From a bacterium (GTDB taxonomy: Bacteria; Lindowbacteria; 2-12-FULL-62-27), in NCBI GenBank assembly GCA_016202645.1, contig JACQOF010000017.1, positions 1 through 31,887 on the forward strand: DNA of 31,887 nt. Direction: 5' to 3'. Numbering within the stretch: the first letter of the stretch is position 1; every line of letters starts with the position of its first letter. The translations under genes and the position numbers were made by a program. Positions 2,837 to 20,138 of this stretch are shown here, piece after piece. The notes beneath the pieces were generated by a model that searched no databases, had not been told where the DNA came from, and worked only from the letters and a program-made list of their open reading frames with translations.

Positions 2837-3945
2837 TGTCCGCGCGCGAGCGGGGCCGCACGGCCCGGCAAATCGAGCGGGCCGTTTCCGAATCAGGCGT
2901 CGCCGTCGAACTGCTCGGCGACCCAGACGCGGCGGCCGCCGGTCTCACCGACCTTTCCGATCCCCGTCCGGGCTGCCTGATTTTTGTCGAACGCCCCAAA
3001 GACGTCGCGGCCGCGCTTCAGGTCGCCGCGCCCGTTCTGATTCTGCCCCGGTCTGAATTGAACCAGGTGGTTCCCGCCTCCGGCCGCGCCGTTCTCGGCG
3101 TGTCCGACGTTCGCCGCGCCATGCCGGTCCTCCTCGGGCTTTTCGATAACCGGCCGGTTCCCCCGCGCGGCGTTCATCCCGCGGCGGTGGTCGCGAAGAC
3201 CGCGTTGATTGGGAAGGACGTTTCCATCGCTCCCGGCGTGGTGGTCGGGGAAGACTGCCGGATCGAGGATGGCGTCATTCTGGAACCGCACGTCAGCGTC
3301 GGTCCCGGAAGCCGGATCGGCGCGGAGTCCCGGATTCACGCAGGCGCCCGCGTCTACGACGGCGTCGACATCGGCCGCCGCTGCCGGATCCACAGCGGCG
3401 CCGTCATCGGCAGTGACGGCTTCGGCTACGTTTCTTCGCCCGCGGGCCACGCCAAAATTCCGCAGATCGGCGGCGTGGTCATCGAAGACGACGTCGAAAT
3501 CGGCGCGAACGTCACCATCGACCGCGGCGCCGTCGGCATGACGCGGGTCGGCGCCGGCGCCAAGATCGACAATCTCGTGCATCTGGCCCACAACGTCGCG
3601 CTCGGCCCTCATTCCATCGTCATCGCGCAGTCCGGCATCGCCGGGAGCGCAAAACTCGGTGCCTGGACGATCCTCGCCGCCCAGTCGGGCGTCGCCGGCC
3701 ACATCCGTGTCGGCGACCGGTGCATGATTGGCGCCAAATCGGGCGTCACCAAATCCCTGCCGCCCGGCCAGATCGTCTCGGGCTTTCCGGCGCGGCCCCA
3801 TCCCGATGAAAAGCGGATCAAAGTTTGTCTCGGCCGGCTTCCCTCCACTGTCCGCGATGTCGCCCGGATCAGGGCCGCCGTCCTGCGGCTGTCCAAACGC
3901 CTGACCCGGGTCGAAAGCGAAGACGCCCGTGCAATACACGCTTAA
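2836..3945 (+). CDS. lpxD: UDP-3-O-(3-hydroxyacyl)glucosamine N-acyltransferase
   Basis: LpxD adds the second 3-hydroxyacyl chain, carried on ACP, to the 2-amino group of UDP-3-O-acylglucosamine, the third step of lipid A synthesis. The 369 residues have the N-terminal uridine-binding domain (ending near FDNRPVPPRGVHPAAVV). A left-handed parallel beta helix of hexapeptide repeats follows, then a helical C-terminal tail (RIRAAVLRLSKRLTRVE). The signature IDNLVHLAHNVALG carries the catalytic histidine (His252, with His249 nearby), and GSDGFGY is the family acyl-carrier contact region. Translation starts at a GTG overlapping the ompH stop. The end overlaps the next gene by 17 bases. Confidence 0.96.
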   Translation: MSARERGRTARQIERAVSESGVAVELLGDPDAAAAGLTDLSDPRPGCLIFVERPKDVAAALQVAAPVLILPRSELNQVVPASGRAVLGVSDVRRAMPVLLGLFDNRPVPPRGVHPAAVVAKTALIGKDVSIAPGVVVGEDCRIEDGVILEPHVSVGPGSRIGAESRIHAGARVYDGVDIGRRCRIHSGAVIGSDGFGYVSSPAGHAKIPQIGGVVIEDDVEIGANVTIDRGAVGMTRVGAGAKIDNLVHLAHNVALGPHSIVIAQSGIAGSAKLGAWTILAAQSGVAGHIRVGDRCMIGAKSGVTKSLPPGQIVSGFPARPHPDEKRIKVCLGRLPSTVRDVARIRAAVLRLSKRLTRVESEDARAIHA

Positions 3946-5227
3946 ATCCTCATTCCCGCTCAACGGCGTCGGCCTCCACACCGGCCAATCCGTGACGGCG
4001 ACTTTTCTTCCGGCGGAACCCGACACCGGCATTCGCTTTCGCCGGGTCGATCTTCCGGAATCTCCCGAAATCGCCGCGCGGGTCCGGCACGTCGTCCGGG
4101 CCGACCGCGGCACGAGCGTCGCGGTGGGAGACGTCCACGTCCACACCATCGAGCACCTCATGGCCGCGCTTTTTTCGATGGGCGTCGACAACTGCGTCGT
4201 GGAATTGACCGCCGAGGAGGCGCCGCTTCTGGACGGATCCTCGAAGGTCTTTGTGGAGGCGATCCGCGCGGCCGGCATCAAAGCCCAGCACCAGGCAGCG
4301 TCGAAAACATTTACGATCCGGGAACCCGTGCATCTGGTCGACGGCAGCCGCATGCTGATCGCCCTGCCCTCCGCCGATTTTCACGTTTCCGAAACCGTCT
4401 CCTTTCCCGACCCCGCCGTCGGCACCCAGCACGCGGCATTCCGCGTGACCCCGGAGGAATTTTCCGCGGAGATCGCGCCGGCGCGGACATTCGGGTTCGT
4501 GTCCGAGGCGGATGAGCTTCGGAACAAGGGCATGATCAAGGGCGCGAGCCTGGAAAACGCGGTGGTGTTCGAGAACGGCAAACTCATCAGCGGGCCCCTC
4601 CGGTTTTCCGACGAGCCGGTCCGGCACAAAATCCTCGATCTTCTCGGAGACCTCGCGCTGCTGGGCCGCCCCATTCGCGGACGCATCGTCGCCTTTCGGT
4701 CCGGCCACGCGTTTAATGTCCGGTTCGTGCGAATGCTGGTCGACCGTTATCTCAAAACGCCCGAAGGCATCGAGGAATCCGCCGGCCCGTCCACGGCCGA
4801 TTTTCCGCTCGACATCAGCGCCATCCAGCAGGTCCTGCCTCACCGGTATCCGTTTCTGCTGGTCGACCGGATCCTCGGCATGAGCGAAACGACGGCAGTC
4901 GGCCTCAAAAATGTCACCGGGAACGAATCTTTTTTTCAAGGCCATTTCCCGGATCGGCCGGTCATGCCGGGTGTCCTGATCGTCGAGGCCATCGCGCAGG
5001 TCGGCGCGATTTTGCTCCTGACCCGGCTGAATAAAAAAGGGAAGATCGTCTACTTTTTGGGACTCGACAAGGTCAAATGGCGCAAGCCCGTCGTGCCGGG
5101 GGACCAGGTGATTCTGGAATGCACCGCCGTCAACATCGGCGGCCGGATCGGCGCGATGGAGGGCAAGGCCTTCGTCGAAGGCGCGCTCGTGGCGGAAGGG
5201 CTTTTCAAGTATGCCGTCTCGGACTAA
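3929..5227 (+). CDS. bifunctional LpxC deacetylase / FabZ 3-hydroxyacyl-ACP dehydratase fusion
   Basis: A 432-residue two-enzyme protein. Residues 1 to about 285 are LpxC, the zinc-dependent deacetylase that commits UDP-3-O-acyl-GlcNAc to lipid A. HTIEH (His72-His76) holds the catalytic Glu75 and zinc ligand His76. His233 and Asp237 (HKILDLLGDL) complete the zinc site, His260 (SGHAFN) is the general acid, and the ARTFGF motif is present. Residues from about 290 are FabZ, which dehydrates 3-hydroxyacyl-ACP for fatty acid elongation: LPHRYPFLLVDRI, then GHFPDRPVMPG with the catalytic His339 and Glu353. The fusion ties the two enzymes that compete for the 3-hydroxyacyl pool. Such fusions are established in Bacteroidetes and several other diderm phyla. 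The start is the GTG giving MQYTLKSSFPLNGVGLH, typical of LpxC; lpxA overlaps the end by 17 bases. Confidence 0.96.
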   Translation: MQYTLKSSFPLNGVGLHTGQSVTATFLPAEPDTGIRFRRVDLPESPEIAARVRHVVRADRGTSVAVGDVHVHTIEHLMAALFSMGVDNCVVELTAEEAPLLDGSSKVFVEAIRAAGIKAQHQAASKTFTIREPVHLVDGSRMLIALPSADFHVSETVSFPDPAVGTQHAAFRVTPEEFSAEIAPARTFGFVSEADELRNKGMIKGASLENAVVFENGKLISGPLRFSDEPVRHKILDLLGDLALLGRPIRGRIVAFRSGHAFNVRFVRMLVDRYLKTPEGIEESAGPSTADFPLDISAIQQVLPHRYPFLLVDRILGMSETTAVGLKNVTGNESFFQGHFPDRPVMPGVLIVEAIAQVGAILLLTRLNKKGKIVYFLGLDKVKWRKPVVPGDQVILECTAVNIGGRIGAMEGKAFVEGALVAEGLFKYAVSD

Positions 5228-15470: not shown

Positions 15471-18323
15471 ATGAGCGCAAGGAAAAAAGTATTTATCATC
15501 CACGGTAAAGGCGTTCAAAACAACCTTGGCAAGGAGAGCGGCGGGGATCTCGACACGGTCGCATCGAATGTTTTTTATTCGGTCTGGGCCTATCATCATT
15601 TGAGTCAGGAGCTCGGACGAAAGCCTGTGTACGGACAGGACTACGTTTTCGATTTTGTGAATTATTCTGAGGGTCTGTTTCATCTGGTCGTTCATCCGGG
15701 CAGCGACATTTATCTTCCGGATTTTCCCATCGACGCGCTGGCGCCGCGGGTCAAGATGCTGGTGATTTCGGAAAAAGCGGTGATCGGGCATTTGAACGAA
15801 TTCACGCGGCTCTTCACCGAATTGCGGCGCTGGATTGTGGACTATGCCAAAATTGTTTCGCGCGAAATTGTATCGATATCCAATGAGATATTCCTGCAAT
15901 ACGCCAAGGTGGTCGAGCATCAGGAGTCGGAGGCCATCAGGGCCGGCAGCCTTGTTGTCTGCCTCTACTACAACCTCGCCTATCTGAACATCATCGAGAA
16001 GACGAAAGCCGGTCCCGAAGCGGCGTCCAAACTCAAAAAATTGATCAGGCCAACGGTCATGTTGACGGTGGGAGACGAGTTCAAACAACTCAAGAAAACT
16101 CTGTGTGACGCCATTGATCCGAAACACAAGCAGGAACTGATCGACAGGGTCATGGCCAAAAACTACGAACCGGCCGTAGAACGCGATTATATCCTCGCGC
16201 TGAAACAGGCGTCCGACGACGATCTAACGACGAAGGGCCGCATGGATCATACAGATGAGCTGATGATATTGGTGGTCGAGACGATAGCCTATATCGTTCG
16301 AGGCGCGCGCCTGGCCCGTCTACTGCCGATGAACAAATTTGACGTCAAACTGGCCGCCAAGATTACAGAGTCCCTGGAATATGCAAGCAAGACACTGCAG
16401 AGGTATTTCGCCCGGCTTTTAACACATGCCGAAGGGATTGGCGCGGTCGGAGACGAAGGGGGCGATATTTCCGTCAATAACCTGCGGATCTGTCTGAAAT
16501 CGCTCGCGCAGATCGCCGGGGAAATCCAAAATCCATCCCAGGAGGAATCGTACGAAGGTCTTGTTCCCATCCGCCTGATGATGATCTATGAGGCATCGGG
16601 CATCGCAGTATCAAACATCGAAGTCTTTGTGAGGCGTCTTGAAGGCGCCGGCGTGTTTGTACTGCCGGATGGAACGGAACTGCCGGGACCTGAAATAAGC
16701 CGGATGACGGATCGAGATGGCGCGGTGGAACTTTATTACCGGCCGGCCTCCTCGGATGAAGCATACCGGATCAGCGCGACTTTCGACGGGATGATCCACA
16801 TCTATTTCCCCTCGGACACCAATCCCAACGTGGACTCAACCGGCCCGTATATCGAAGAGGGGATGGATTTCAGCGACGCGACCGGCATCGACCGGGCAAT
16901 GAAGGTATCGCTTGATCTCATGGAACGGCAGATCAAATTTCTGAAGGATCACGACATCGGCATCGCCGCGATTGACGATCATCACCCCTACACGCCGGCG
17001 ATTTTCGGAAAACTGCGGGAACTCGAAGAACAGGGTTATATCGGCCACATCAAACTATCCAGCCTCGCGCGCGGACAAGAGCAGGCCGTTGAGGAGCAGA
17101 AATGCGGAGCGGATCTCATTTATGAGCAGTACATCGAAGGCAGGCCGTGGGACAACGTGGGGCTGCGAAAACTGCGGGACCTTGCGCACGATCAAGACCT
17201 GGCCATCGCCCGTCACGATCTGGCGATGCAATTGTCGAAACTGATCGGGTTGAAACACAGAAAAATCGAAATGGTCATGACCCTGTCGCAAAATATCAAG
17301 GACATCCAATCGCTTGATGAAATCATGGCCCGTACTGAATGGGACAAGGAAGTGCGCTCGTTTGATGGGCATATATCCAGGGTTATTCCGCGGTGTGAAG
17401 AGATCATCGGCCATATCGTGTTGGCCCGTAACGGCGAGGACGCCGCCCCAGTATACATTCTGGCGGTGATGCCTCCTTTCTGCGATCCCAAAAAGGGCGA
17501 GCCGCAGGTCAATCTTGCGACGGCGATGGGATATTTGCTGGGAGGAAAACAGTATCCGGCGGACTATTTTTTCTACTGCTACAACTCGGATATGCTGCAG
17601 ATGCGCAGATCGAACAAGCAGGATGACAGCCTGGACCTCAGCACGCTGGCGCAGCGTCTGGGAACTCCCGGCGATGGCGGCCACAGCGGCTCGGCCACTT
17701 GCCGGCCGGGCCTGAATCCGGCGTTCCCGGCCCGGCTGTTTTCCAAAATCAATGAGCTGAATTTTCTTCAGTATCTGGGCTATGTCGGCTCGCGGATCAG
17801 CGAGGCAACCGGATTGCGCCTGATGGATGTGATGCCGCCGGCGGGCCTGGAATTAAGCGAGGAACAGAAAGAATGTATTGAAAAAATTGCCGCGAATTCC
17901 CACATTCTGGGGCTTGTCCATCGGGATTCGGACGCAAACCGGATCAATGTCCTGGTCGTCAGAGCGCCCGTGAAATCAATGCGGGTTCCAATCGGGTATC
18001 TGCAGATATTCCATTATGTGCGGACGCAAATGGACGCTCAGTACCTGATTTATTGTCAGCAGGGGCTTGGCTCGATGGTCATTCAAAATGTCAAGGATCC
18101 CGCCAGGCGTTTGAATCCGGGCCGACTGGCCAGGGATTTCGGATGGCCGGAAGATGGTGGAACGGATCTCGTTGGGATAGCCAGCGGCCGGTTGAACAAG
18201 TACATCAAGCCGGATTTCAGGTGGCTTCGGGACGATGATTTTTTCCGCCTCTGCACTCTGTTTGGGCTGATATTGGACAATCGGACGGAATACAAAGTCA
18301 AATCATATTCCAAACCAAAATGA
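15471..18323 (+). CDS. large multidomain DHH-DHHA1 phosphoesterase family protein
   Basis: A 950-residue protein with no close family recognised as a whole. Residues 1-125 start KKVFIIHGKGVQ and look like an alpha/beta domain. About 130-360 are mainly helical. About 362-445 (GIAVSNIEVFVRR...YYRPASSDEAYRISATFDG) look like an Ig-type beta domain. Residues about 455-600 resemble a DHH domain, with IDDHHP (Asp503-His504-His505) as the metal motif, KCGADLIYEQ and LAHDQDLAIA. Residues about 640-745 match a DHHA1 domain: MRRSNKQDDSLDLSTLAQRLG then DGGHSGSATC, with GGH at 736-738. A second similar block ends PEDGGTDLVGIASG (896-898 GGT), apparently a degenerate DHHA1 copy. DHH enzymes such as RecJ and NrnA cleave phosphodiesters of DNA or small nucleotides using Mn2+; the substrate here is unknown. 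The ATG at 15471 is chosen because the N-terminal strand starts there, although its ribosome site is poor. The gene is more AT-rich than all its neighbours, suggesting transfer. Confidence 0.75.
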   Translation: MSARKKVFIIHGKGVQNNLGKESGGDLDTVASNVFYSVWAYHHLSQELGRKPVYGQDYVFDFVNYSEGLFHLVVHPGSDIYLPDFPIDALAPRVKMLVISEKAVIGHLNEFTRLFTELRRWIVDYAKIVSREIVSISNEIFLQYAKVVEHQESEAIRAGSLVVCLYYNLAYLNIIEKTKAGPEAASKLKKLIRPTVMLTVGDEFKQLKKTLCDAIDPKHKQELIDRVMAKNYEPAVERDYILALKQASDDDLTTKGRMDHTDELMILVVETIAYIVRGARLARLLPMNKFDVKLAAKITESLEYASKTLQRYFARLLTHAEGIGAVGDEGGDISVNNLRICLKSLAQIAGEIQNPSQEESYEGLVPIRLMMIYEASGIAVSNIEVFVRRLEGAGVFVLPDGTELPGPEISRMTDRDGAVELYYRPASSDEAYRISATFDGMIHIYFPSDTNPNVDSTGPYIEEGMDFSDATGIDRAMKVSLDLMERQIKFLKDHDIGIAAIDDHHPYTPAIFGKLRELEEQGYIGHIKLSSLARGQEQAVEEQKCGADLIYEQYIEGRPWDNVGLRKLRDLAHDQDLAIARHDLAMQLSKLIGLKHRKIEMVMTLSQNIKDIQSLDEIMARTEWDKEVRSFDGHISRVIPRCEEIIGHIVLARNGEDAAPVYILAVMPPFCDPKKGEPQVNLATAMGYLLGGKQYPADYFFYCYNSDMLQMRRSNKQDDSLDLSTLAQRLGTPGDGGHSGSATCRPGLNPAFPARLFSKINELNFLQYLGYVGSRISEATGLRLMDVMPPAGLELSEEQKECIEKIAANSHILGLVHRDSDANRINVLVVRAPVKSMRVPIGYLQIFHYVRTQMDAQYLIYCQQGLGSMVIQNVKDPARRLNPGRLARDFGWPEDGGTDLVGIASGRLNKYIKPDFRWLRDDDFFRLCTLFGLILDNRTEYKVKSYSKPK

Positions 18324-18401: not shown

Positions 18402-20138
18402 ATGGCCAGGGGCGCTCCGGTTCTCAAGCGGTGGATTTACTGGATGAAGAAACTCGCGAAGAACGTCTACCGGTGGTTCTTCGCATGCCCGGACCGGCTG
18501 TCCTTTTCGAAAATCTCCTCGTATTTGTCCTGCCCGCAGAAATACGAATTTGAGTTCAAGAAGAAAAAGACCGTGAAGTACACGCCGATGTCCGCGTACG
18601 GGACCATCATCCACCGCGTGCTGGAAGCCTTTCACACGGACTACGACGTCAAGACCGCCTCCGAGGATGAACTCTTTCAGCTTCTCGACGAAAACTGGAT
18701 CCCCGCCGGGTTTCCGACGAAGGAGGAGGACGAACGCTTCAGGGCCCGCGGCCGAGACCTGCTCCGGCGGTATCTGGCCCACGCCCGGGAAAATCCGGCG
18801 GAGGTCTGGCGGACCGAGCTGTTTGTGACCGGCAAGATCGGCGGTGTCGACGTCGTCGGCCAGATGGACCGGATCGATCAGGAGCCGGACGGAACATACA
18901 CCATCATCGACTACAAGACCGGCGACAAGAAACTCTCGGCCGAGGGCGCCCAGAACGATCTTCAGGCGAACATCTATTATCTCCTCGGCGAAACATCGAT
19001 CGGCAAAAAATTCAAAAACTTCTTTTTCTGGTACCTCGAACGCGACGAAAAAGTCCCCGTTACGATCACCGACGAGGCCCGCAAGGAGACCACGCGGGTC
19101 GTCCGGAAAGTCGCGCACGACATGCAGTACGCAGACGTCCACCCGCGGAAGGGCGTCCTCTGCAATTGGTGCGATTTTTACGAGCGGTGCCCCGCCTGGA
19201 AAGAGCGCCCGGAACGGCTCTACAAAATCGTCCGCGAGTCCGAGGACCGGATGGGCCTTTCCTATTCCAAGATGAGTTCCTACGAAAACTGCCCCATGGC
19301 CTACAAGAAACTCTACATCGACAAGGTCGGGACCAAACCCAAATGGTTTTTCTCGATCGGGCACACCGTCCACCAGACCATGGAGGAATTCTACATGTAC
19401 GACGGCCCCCTCGCCGAGCCGTCCCTCTCATGGCTCCTCAAGCTCTACCACGAGCACTGGATCGGCCGCGGGTATGACTCCAAACAGCACGAGGAGGAGA
19501 CGAAGAGGGAGGCCGAGGGGTGGATGCGGAATTATTACGACAAATACGTGAAAGGCAAATTCCGCCGGGCCTACGCCGTCGAGGAATATTTTGAACTCCC
19601 GCTCGGCCGGCACGTCATCATCGGCTACATCGACCGCCTCGAGCAGAACGACGACGGCACCGTGTCTCTCTACGACTACAAGACAGACCCTGTCATGCGC
19701 ACGCAGGCTGACGTCAACAAGGACCGCCAGCTGTTCCTCTATGCGTGGGCCTGCAAGAAACTCGGCATTCCGCTCCGGGACCAGACACTCCTTTTCGTCA
19801 AATTCAACGAGCACATCACCACCACCCACACGGAAAAAGACATTGAGGAATTCGAGCAGTACGTCATCCGCGTCGCGGACGAAATGGTCAAGGTCGAGCG
19901 GGCCGCGAAGACCCTGCCGACCGCGGAGGCCGACCGGCTCTTTCCGCCGAAGATCAACAAATACTGCGGCGGCTGTGATTATCTGCCCATCTGCCCGAAA
20001 CGCGAGGAGATTTTGACCCAGCACAAGGACAAGATCATGCACAAGGTTGACGAGACGAAGATCCGGGACCGCGAGCCCGAATCGGTGATCGTTGTCTCGG
20101 ACGAATCGGCCGCCGTGCACGCCCCAGGCGTGAACTGA
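18402..20138 (+). CDS. tandem PD-(D/E)XK nuclease protein with two iron-sulfur cysteine sets
   Basis: A 578-residue protein made of two copies of the RecB/Cas4/AddB-type nuclease domain. Copy 1 (about 33-270): LSFSKISSYLSCPQKY, then MDRID with Asp156, IIDYKTG with Asp170 and Lys172, a QANIYYL helix, and CNWCDFYERC. Copy 2 (about 290-535): LSYSKMSSYENCPMAY, IDRLE with Asp411, LYDYKTD with Asp425 and Lys427, RQLFLYAWA, and CGGCDYLPIC. Each copy has one N-terminal and three C-terminal cysteines (44/254/257/263 and 297/522/525/531) with identical CxxC-x5-C spacing, as expected for a 4Fe-4S cluster that staples the fold. Both active sites look intact. Relatives cut single-stranded DNA in recombination, repair or CRISPR adaptation. 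No helicase is fused or adjacent. An alternative start is the ATG at 18444, which has a better-placed GGTGGA. Confidence 0.88.
   Translation: MARGAPVLKRWIYWMKKLAKNVYRWFFACPDRLSFSKISSYLSCPQKYEFEFKKKKTVKYTPMSAYGTIIHRVLEAFHTDYDVKTASEDELFQLLDENWIPAGFPTKEEDERFRARGRDLLRRYLAHARENPAEVWRTELFVTGKIGGVDVVGQMDRIDQEPDGTYTIIDYKTGDKKLSAEGAQNDLQANIYYLLGETSIGKKFKNFFFWYLERDEKVPVTITDEARKETTRVVRKVAHDMQYADVHPRKGVLCNWCDFYERCPAWKERPERLYKIVRESEDRMGLSYSKMSSYENCPMAYKKLYIDKVGTKPKWFFSIGHTVHQTMEEFYMYDGPLAEPSLSWLLKLYHEHWIGRGYDSKQHEEETKREAEGWMRNYYDKYVKGKFRRAYAVEEYFELPLGRHVIIGYIDRLEQNDDGTVSLYDYKTDPVMRTQADVNKDRQLFLYAWACKKLGIPLRDQTLLFVKFNEHITTTHTEKDIEEFEQYVIRVADEMVKVERAAKTLPTAEADRLFPPKINKYCGGCDYLPICPKREEILTQHKDKIMHKVDETKIRDREPESVIVVSDESAAVHAPGVN

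Follow-up and report, generated by a model that had tools for sequence, protein, structure and literature searches.

Cells rely on enzymes with a DHH and a DHHA1 domain to remove short RNAs, to repair DNA, and to turn over nucleotide signals. The chemistry of the DHH superfamily is two-metal hydrolysis of a phosphodiester or phosphomonoester (PMC8268124); among described members, the archaeal Hef-associated nuclease HAN is a 3'-5' exonuclease on single-stranded DNA and RNA (PMC5717133), and NrnB is a 3'-5' exoribonuclease (PMC12709177). In Cdc45 the DHH domain is interrupted by a helical insertion, part of which is acidic and disordered (PMC4873980), and the expected metal-binding residues have been lost (PMC5484177).

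We describe here the domain layout, insertion site, motif invariance, repeat homology, and selection of P0001, a 950-residue protein encoded in a 31,887-nucleotide stretch of bacterial DNA (the window), and we propose a catalysis, substrate, and polarity for it as well as roles for its insertion and its second DHHA1 copy. P0001 represents an unnamed subfamily within a known superfamily, a variant set apart by its unusual split architecture, laid out as follows.

15471..18323, plus strand: whole gene, split-DHH and tandem-DHHA1 protein P0001 (950-residue open reading frame)
15471..15740, plus strand: first half of the DHH domain (residues 1-90), with strand KKVFIIHG and motifs I and II; collinear with an insertion-free paralogue, aligned with DHH folds from residue 1, and aligned with RecJ by hhalign once the insertion is removed
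15546..15554, plus strand: motif I aspartates D26 and D28 (GGDLDT), invariant in 21 members
15720..15722, plus strand: motif II aspartate D84 (DIYLPDFPID), invariant, following strand 78-83 of the model
15747..15767, plus strand: apparent first strand of the inserted Ig-like domain (residues 93-99), where Ig-fold alignments begin before resuming at the Ig block
15774..16523, plus strand: nested helical domain (residues 102-351), AlphaFold pLDDT ~90, missing from the short paralogues
16554..16814, plus strand: Ig-like domain of the intimin/invasin BIg type (residues 362-448), VIA-align Z 9.6-9.8, rmsd 1.7-2.3
16815..16895, plus strand: disordered acidic linker (residues 449-475), pLDDT <50 at 452-471, acidic in 17/18 long members
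16896..17366, plus strand: remainder of the DHH domain (residues 476-632), where motifs III and IV lie, from the alignment, AlphaFold model, and fold matches
16977..16988, plus strand: motif III DHHP (residues 503-506), invariant in 21 members
17196..17198, plus strand: putative motif IV aspartate D576 (QDL), invariant, assigned from motif order and helix position
17373..17834, plus strand: DHHA1 copy 1 (residues 635-788), with R712 and DGGH 735-738, from alignment, fold, and hhalign
17835..18320, plus strand: DHHA1 copy 2 (residues 789-950), degenerate, R and H replaced, from hhalign to copy 1 and a match to the AlaRS C-terminal domain (Z 7.8)

Coding status and composition of the gene

The P0001 gene is real and evolutionarily maintained. 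A 950-residue reading frame with DHH and DHHA1 signatures had been noted at 15471-18323 from the DNA letters alone, and its translation, motifs, and orthologues bear this out. Relatives begin MRKKxFIIHG in the alignment of family members, and the ATG at 15471 is therefore the likely start; the same beginning counts against GTG 15381, which we rejected. Full-length orthologues, 68% and 59% identical, are found in two genomes of the same family, the host's nearest relatives by genome being the Candidatus Lindowbacteria records MFPR01 and JAHFCY01. The dN/dS ratio is ~0.2 overall and <0.35 in each domain, reflecting purifying selection throughout, as befits a maintained protein-coding gene.

When codon usage is compared among the genes of the window, the GC3 of P0001 (0.65, reduced alike in core and insertion) falls below that of most neighbours (0.72-0.86) and of the surrounding genes (~0.79); the foreign composition reported in the earlier note is real to this extent, but the closest orthologue has a normal GC3 of 0.78. 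The gene lies in a different location in each of three related genomes. Elsewhere in the window, by reading only, 3929-5227 appears to encode an LpxC-FabZ fusion in an OmpH-LpxD-LpxC/FabZ-LpxA-LpxI lipid A run, and 224-1573 a glutaredoxin-like domain fused to thioredoxin reductase.

A DHH domain divided between motifs II and III

Four motifs bearing the metal-binding aspartates and histidines of the DHH superfamily occur in P0001 in order; motifs I-III align with RecJ, and motif IV is placed by order only. Residues D26, D28, D84, D503-H504-H505-P506, D576, R712, and G736-G737-H738 are invariant in 21/21 aligned members, and IDDHHP is found in the translation at 501-506, where it had been noted before. 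The predicted active site is intact: its catalytic residues are all conserved.

The division of the domain is seen from a shorter protein in the same genome.

L004:6091-7257, minus strand: insertion-free 388-residue paralogue, otherwise collinear with P0001

This paralogue joins the equivalent of P0001 residues 1-90 straight to ~497-789, and residues 1-90, which carry motifs I and II, are therefore the first half of the DHH domain. Thus KKVFIIHGKG, previously read as a separate alpha/beta start to an unassigned N-terminal half, is actually the first DHH strand, and the part that is foreign is an insertion inside the DHH domain at ~91-475. A similar insertion-free protein is present in the relatives and in L038, and in a tree of the core the insertion-free forms all fall on one side of a well-supported branch, so that a single gain or loss of the insertion is enough. 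In three Lindowbacteria genomes (L004, L018, L019) the insertion-free paralogue adjoins a DinG-like helicase gene.

The insertion (~385 residues between motifs II and III, absent from the short paralogues) contains both the helical region and the Ig-like beta region (362-445) that had been proposed from the sequence, each now seen in an AlphaFold model, and it keeps its shape when folded alone (pLDDT 85, pTM 0.84). The Ig part superposes on intimin/invasin domains with an rmsd of 1.7-2.3 over 79-84 residues (VIA-align, Z up to 9.8). Since these alignments start at insertion residues 1-5 (= 90-94), end at 358-359, and so span both the insertion start and the Ig block, strand 93-99 seems to be the first Ig strand, and the Ig sandwich is apparently interrupted after it by the helical domain of ~250 residues, a nesting that we read from the alignment ranges together with secondary structure. 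The intimin/invasin BIg domains have a fold like that of P0001 residues 93-99 plus 362-448, but the Ig domain of P0001, unlike theirs, sits inside an enzyme and is apparently split by a helical domain; no signal peptide was seen in P0001 by eye.

The helical part, searched alone, best matches designed four-helix bundles; since the Z of 8.4 is within the range expected for any bundle, we claim no family for it, and its fold may be a known one. It is the fastest-evolving part of the protein (44-59% identity among close orthologues), and in most members it has a net charge that is negative or close to zero, which argues against its binding nucleic acid itself.

Repeated DHHA1 domains

A DHHA1-like block, MRRS...LAQRLG...DGGHSGSATC, had been recognized before and is present at 711-744; the arginine and GGH motif after DHH, the invariance of R712 and G736-G737-H738, and the fold all agree with a DHHA1 domain. 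The simple DHH-DHHA1 build drawn from it stands in this respect but overlooked a second, C-terminal DHHA1. By hhalign, copy 1 matches copy 2 with a probability of 99.8% (E 1.2e-28), and a third DHHA1 in ten longer relatives matches copy 1 at 98.4% and copy 2 at 98.8%; unrelated domains used as negative controls gave 0.2-0.4%. Copy 2 looks like a duplicated DHHA1 that has since decayed, because its arginine and histidine are gone in P0001, yet L033 retains both, and L034 and L037 retain the arginine. To our knowledge there is no earlier case of repeated DHHA1 domains.

Structural and sequence relatives

An AlphaFold2 model of P0001, built with 18 family sequences, has a pLDDT of 87 and pTM of 0.84, with disorder confined to 452-471. 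Its best PDB matches over residues 1-783 (VIA-align) are DHH-DHHA1 proteins: i) P. furiosus PF0399 (5yh1), which we take to be HAN, with the best Z (14.1, 334 residues, 3.7 A), the common fold covering P0001 residues 1-782, although P0001 differs from HAN in its 385-residue insertion between motifs II and III and its second DHHA1, no S1/OB domain was detected in it, and the two are only 12% identical; ii) PAP phosphatase 8a8k, Z 13.3, which is within 1 Z unit of PF0399 and hence tied with it; iii) M. jannaschii RecJ2 (Z 10.9), Cdc45 (Z 10-11.5 over 1-781), and PggH (Z 10.1); and iv) NrnA, GdpP, and DhhP (Z 7-8). A Foldseek search of the PDB with the whole model gave nothing below E 0.001 (best PggH, E 0.009, probability 1.0), and the fold assignment therefore rests on VIA-align, on the motifs, and on Foldseek matches to viral models. 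A phage NrnB, a DHH family phosphohydrolase, and a DHD phosphohydrolase are among the four best of these viral matches (E <0.001).

Support from sequence is much weaker than that from the fold. When the insertion is cut out, RecJ aligns with P0001 at motifs I, II, and III (hhalign, E 0.004) and NrnA at the GGH block (E 0.001-0.006), at probabilities of only 6-21% despite the small E-values; in the uncut protein, only motif III still aligns with RecJ. One natural relative matches PHROG 4771 'DHH phosphoesterase' over 300 residues (E 0.0032). With HMMER, Pfam DHH (PF01368) matched neither P0001, nor its pieces, nor 20 relatives, and none of the PF01368 matches in the genomes falls on the loci of P0001-family genes; no Pfam, NCBIfam, PADLOC, or PDB sequence model recognizes P0001, PADLOC giving no match up to E = 1. 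Helical segments (coiled coils, viral stalks) accounted for most of the weak PDB sequence matches, which were set aside as compositional. Lack of a DHH/DHHA1 profile match, named in the earlier note as grounds for abandoning the assignment, was thus what HMMER returned against Pfam, but it is overruled by the fold, the insertion-free hhalign alignments, and the weak PHROG match: P0001 almost certainly belongs to the DHH-DHHA1 superfamily, and the family is missed by Pfam, NCBIfam, and PDB sequence searches because its catalytic domain is split and diverged.

The same note was right that parts of P0001 are foreign to RecJ, NrnA, and PPX1, these being the Ig and helical insertion; no family named in the libraries searched was found to have the whole architecture. 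The NrnB nanoRNases (COG2404) are also DHH-DHHA1 proteins, and one of viral origin ranks among the best matches to predicted structures, but NrnBs were collected by a GGGH motif (PMC12709177) that the P0001 family lacks, its own DGGH being invariant, and the family has in addition the insertion and extra DHHA1 copies. NrnA, DhhP, GdpP, PggH, and PAP phosphatase resemble P0001 in fold, motif order, and the R plus GGH block; unlike this group, P0001 has motif I GGDLDT (21/21 members) rather than PDxDAxGS and has no PF01368 match, nor any Pfam match corresponding to the PF01368 plus PF02272 of NrnA. RecJ aligns at motifs I-III after removal of the insertion, but the RecJ models of Pfam and NCBIfam do not match P0001, whose C terminus is the second DHHA1. 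Cdc45 has a helical insertion of ~80 residues (L118-S197) and no longer an active site, whereas P0001 carries ~385 inserted residues, an Ig domain among them, and keeps its predicted site intact. The host genome separately encodes a 337-residue, NrnA-size PF01368 protein and a 793-residue, RecJ-size DHH protein.

Distribution and sister forms

Among the hosts of the P0001 family are Lindowbacteria, Auribacterota (Erginobacter, Euphemobacter, Tritonobacter), Elusimicrobiota, Muiribacteriota, and a Spirochaetes MAG, besides further uncultured lineages, but it occurs patchily: 10/386 genomes of a broad sample, 6/16 and 6/44 in two phyla, and 2/2 in another. Long forms are single copy per genome among the genomes examined, and no relatives were found by sequence in viral contigs, phages, or plasmids. 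Ordinary PF01368 proteins coexist with the family in all 20 of the 20 family-bearing genomes checked, and we therefore rule out that it replaces RecJ or NrnA.

A sister subfamily has its insertion elsewhere.

L109:1468-3615, minus strand: sister DHH protein of 716 residues, N-terminal GYF_2, ~190-residue insertion before motif I
L110:1462-3582, minus strand: sister DHH protein of 707 residues, N-terminal GYF_2, ~190-residue insertion before motif I

In these two genomes the GYF_2 form (Pfam) has no insertion between motifs II and III. Two loops of the DHH core thus carry insertions, one between motifs II and III (Ig with nested helical domain, as in P0001), and the other before motif I (~190 residues, with GYF_2, in the sister subfamily). 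A 619-residue member (L039:1505-3361) has an insertion between the first strand and motif I and no detectable GYF_2.

Predicted function and alternatives

We suspect, with about even confidence, that P0001 is a metal-dependent, single-strand exonuclease or nanoRNase-type phosphoesterase, judging from the model and by analogy with its nearest folds. The DHH domain (1-90 plus 476-632) would bind two divalent metals, probably Mn2+, via D26, D28, D84, H504, and D576; DHHA1 copy 1 (635-788, R712, GGH) would close over the substrate and position the phosphodiester for hydrolysis, in the manner of NrnA, NrnB, and HAN; short or single-stranded RNA or DNA would most likely be shortened step by step in this way; copy 2, without the usual arginine and histidine, would probably widen the binding surface; and the nested Ig and helical insertion, on its acidic tether, probably controls access or serves as a docking site for a partner. 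We infer the preference for single-stranded RNA or DNA from the nearest folds (HAN and NrnB, both acting 3'-5') and from the extra DHHA1 copies. Against the exonuclease reading, the fold matches PAP phosphatase and dinucleotide phosphodiesterases as well and does not fix the substrate, and the neighbourhood offers no clue to the role of P0001.

The same fold matches, PAP phosphatase (8a8k, Z 13.3), PggH (Z 10.1), and GdpP/DhhP (Z 7-8), make it conceivable, if somewhat doubtful, that P0001 is instead a small-molecule phosphodiesterase or phosphatase whose substrate is a nucleotide signal (pAp, pGpG, c-di-AMP, or another) and whose active site is gated by the helical insertion as a sensor of ligands. 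Parts of that insertion do align with sensor four-helix bundles, among them the ligand-binding domain of McpS (Z 10.5 within the whole model and 7.3 for the insertion by itself), but helical-bundle matches at such Z are common by chance, the helical domain evolves fastest (44-59% identity), unlike a conserved ligand pocket, and the extra DHHA1 copies fit a longer polymer better than a dinucleotide. A catalytically dead, Cdc45-like scaffold, in which the DHH fold and insertion organize a replication or repair complex, would account for the Cdc45 match across 1-781 (Z 10-11.5) and for the acidic disordered linker in the insertion, which Cdc45 has likewise (PMC4873980); it is quite improbable given that the expected metal-binding residues, lost in Cdc45 (PMC5484177), are invariant in 21/21 members.

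The earlier note had favored a component of an undescribed system. In the window, the gene is followed by a nuclease gene.

18402..20138, plus strand: P0002, a tandem PD-(D/E)XK, Cas4-like (RecB-like) nuclease of 578 residues (PDDEXK_1, E 9.5e-62)

That P0001 acts in an anti-phage or mobile system, perhaps with this nuclease, would fit its low GC3 (0.65 vs ~0.79 around it), its different location in each of three related genomes, and the occurrence of P0002-like tandem nucleases in 5/6 Auribacterota-type genomes with the DHH gene vs 0/38 without. The last pattern may reflect shared ancestry, however, and fails in another phylum (6/6 with vs 7/10 without); the nuclease adjoins the DHH gene in this genome only, among the genomes examined; and there are no PADLOC matches, no viral, phage, or plasmid relatives by sequence, and no conserved neighbours. 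We consider this the most remote of the readings, and a functional pairing of P0001 with P0002 unsupported. Gene-neighbourhood clustering found nothing shared right beside P0001-family genes beyond close relatives, and since no neighbourhood is conserved across phyla, nothing supports a multi-gene system around P0001. Many genomes of an Elusimicrobia-related phylum encode P0002-like tandem proteins. Unrelated GGDEF/response-regulator-type genes lie within several kb in six family loci.

Returning to the exonuclease reading, we put forward, tentatively and as something rather less probable than that reading itself, that these proteins form a distinct class of DHH enzymes, built on a catalytic domain that accommodates large insertions at two loops and is combined with two or three DHHA1 domains, the insertion recruiting or sensing a partner and gating a multi-site exonuclease. 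The P0001 motif residues make direct loss-of-activity controls possible, and a family profile would allow annotation pipelines to name proteins of this type. The family spans at least five phylum-level lineages of uncultured bacteria in which sequence searches have missed it, and in its sister subfamilies the DHH core is interrupted at two different loops.
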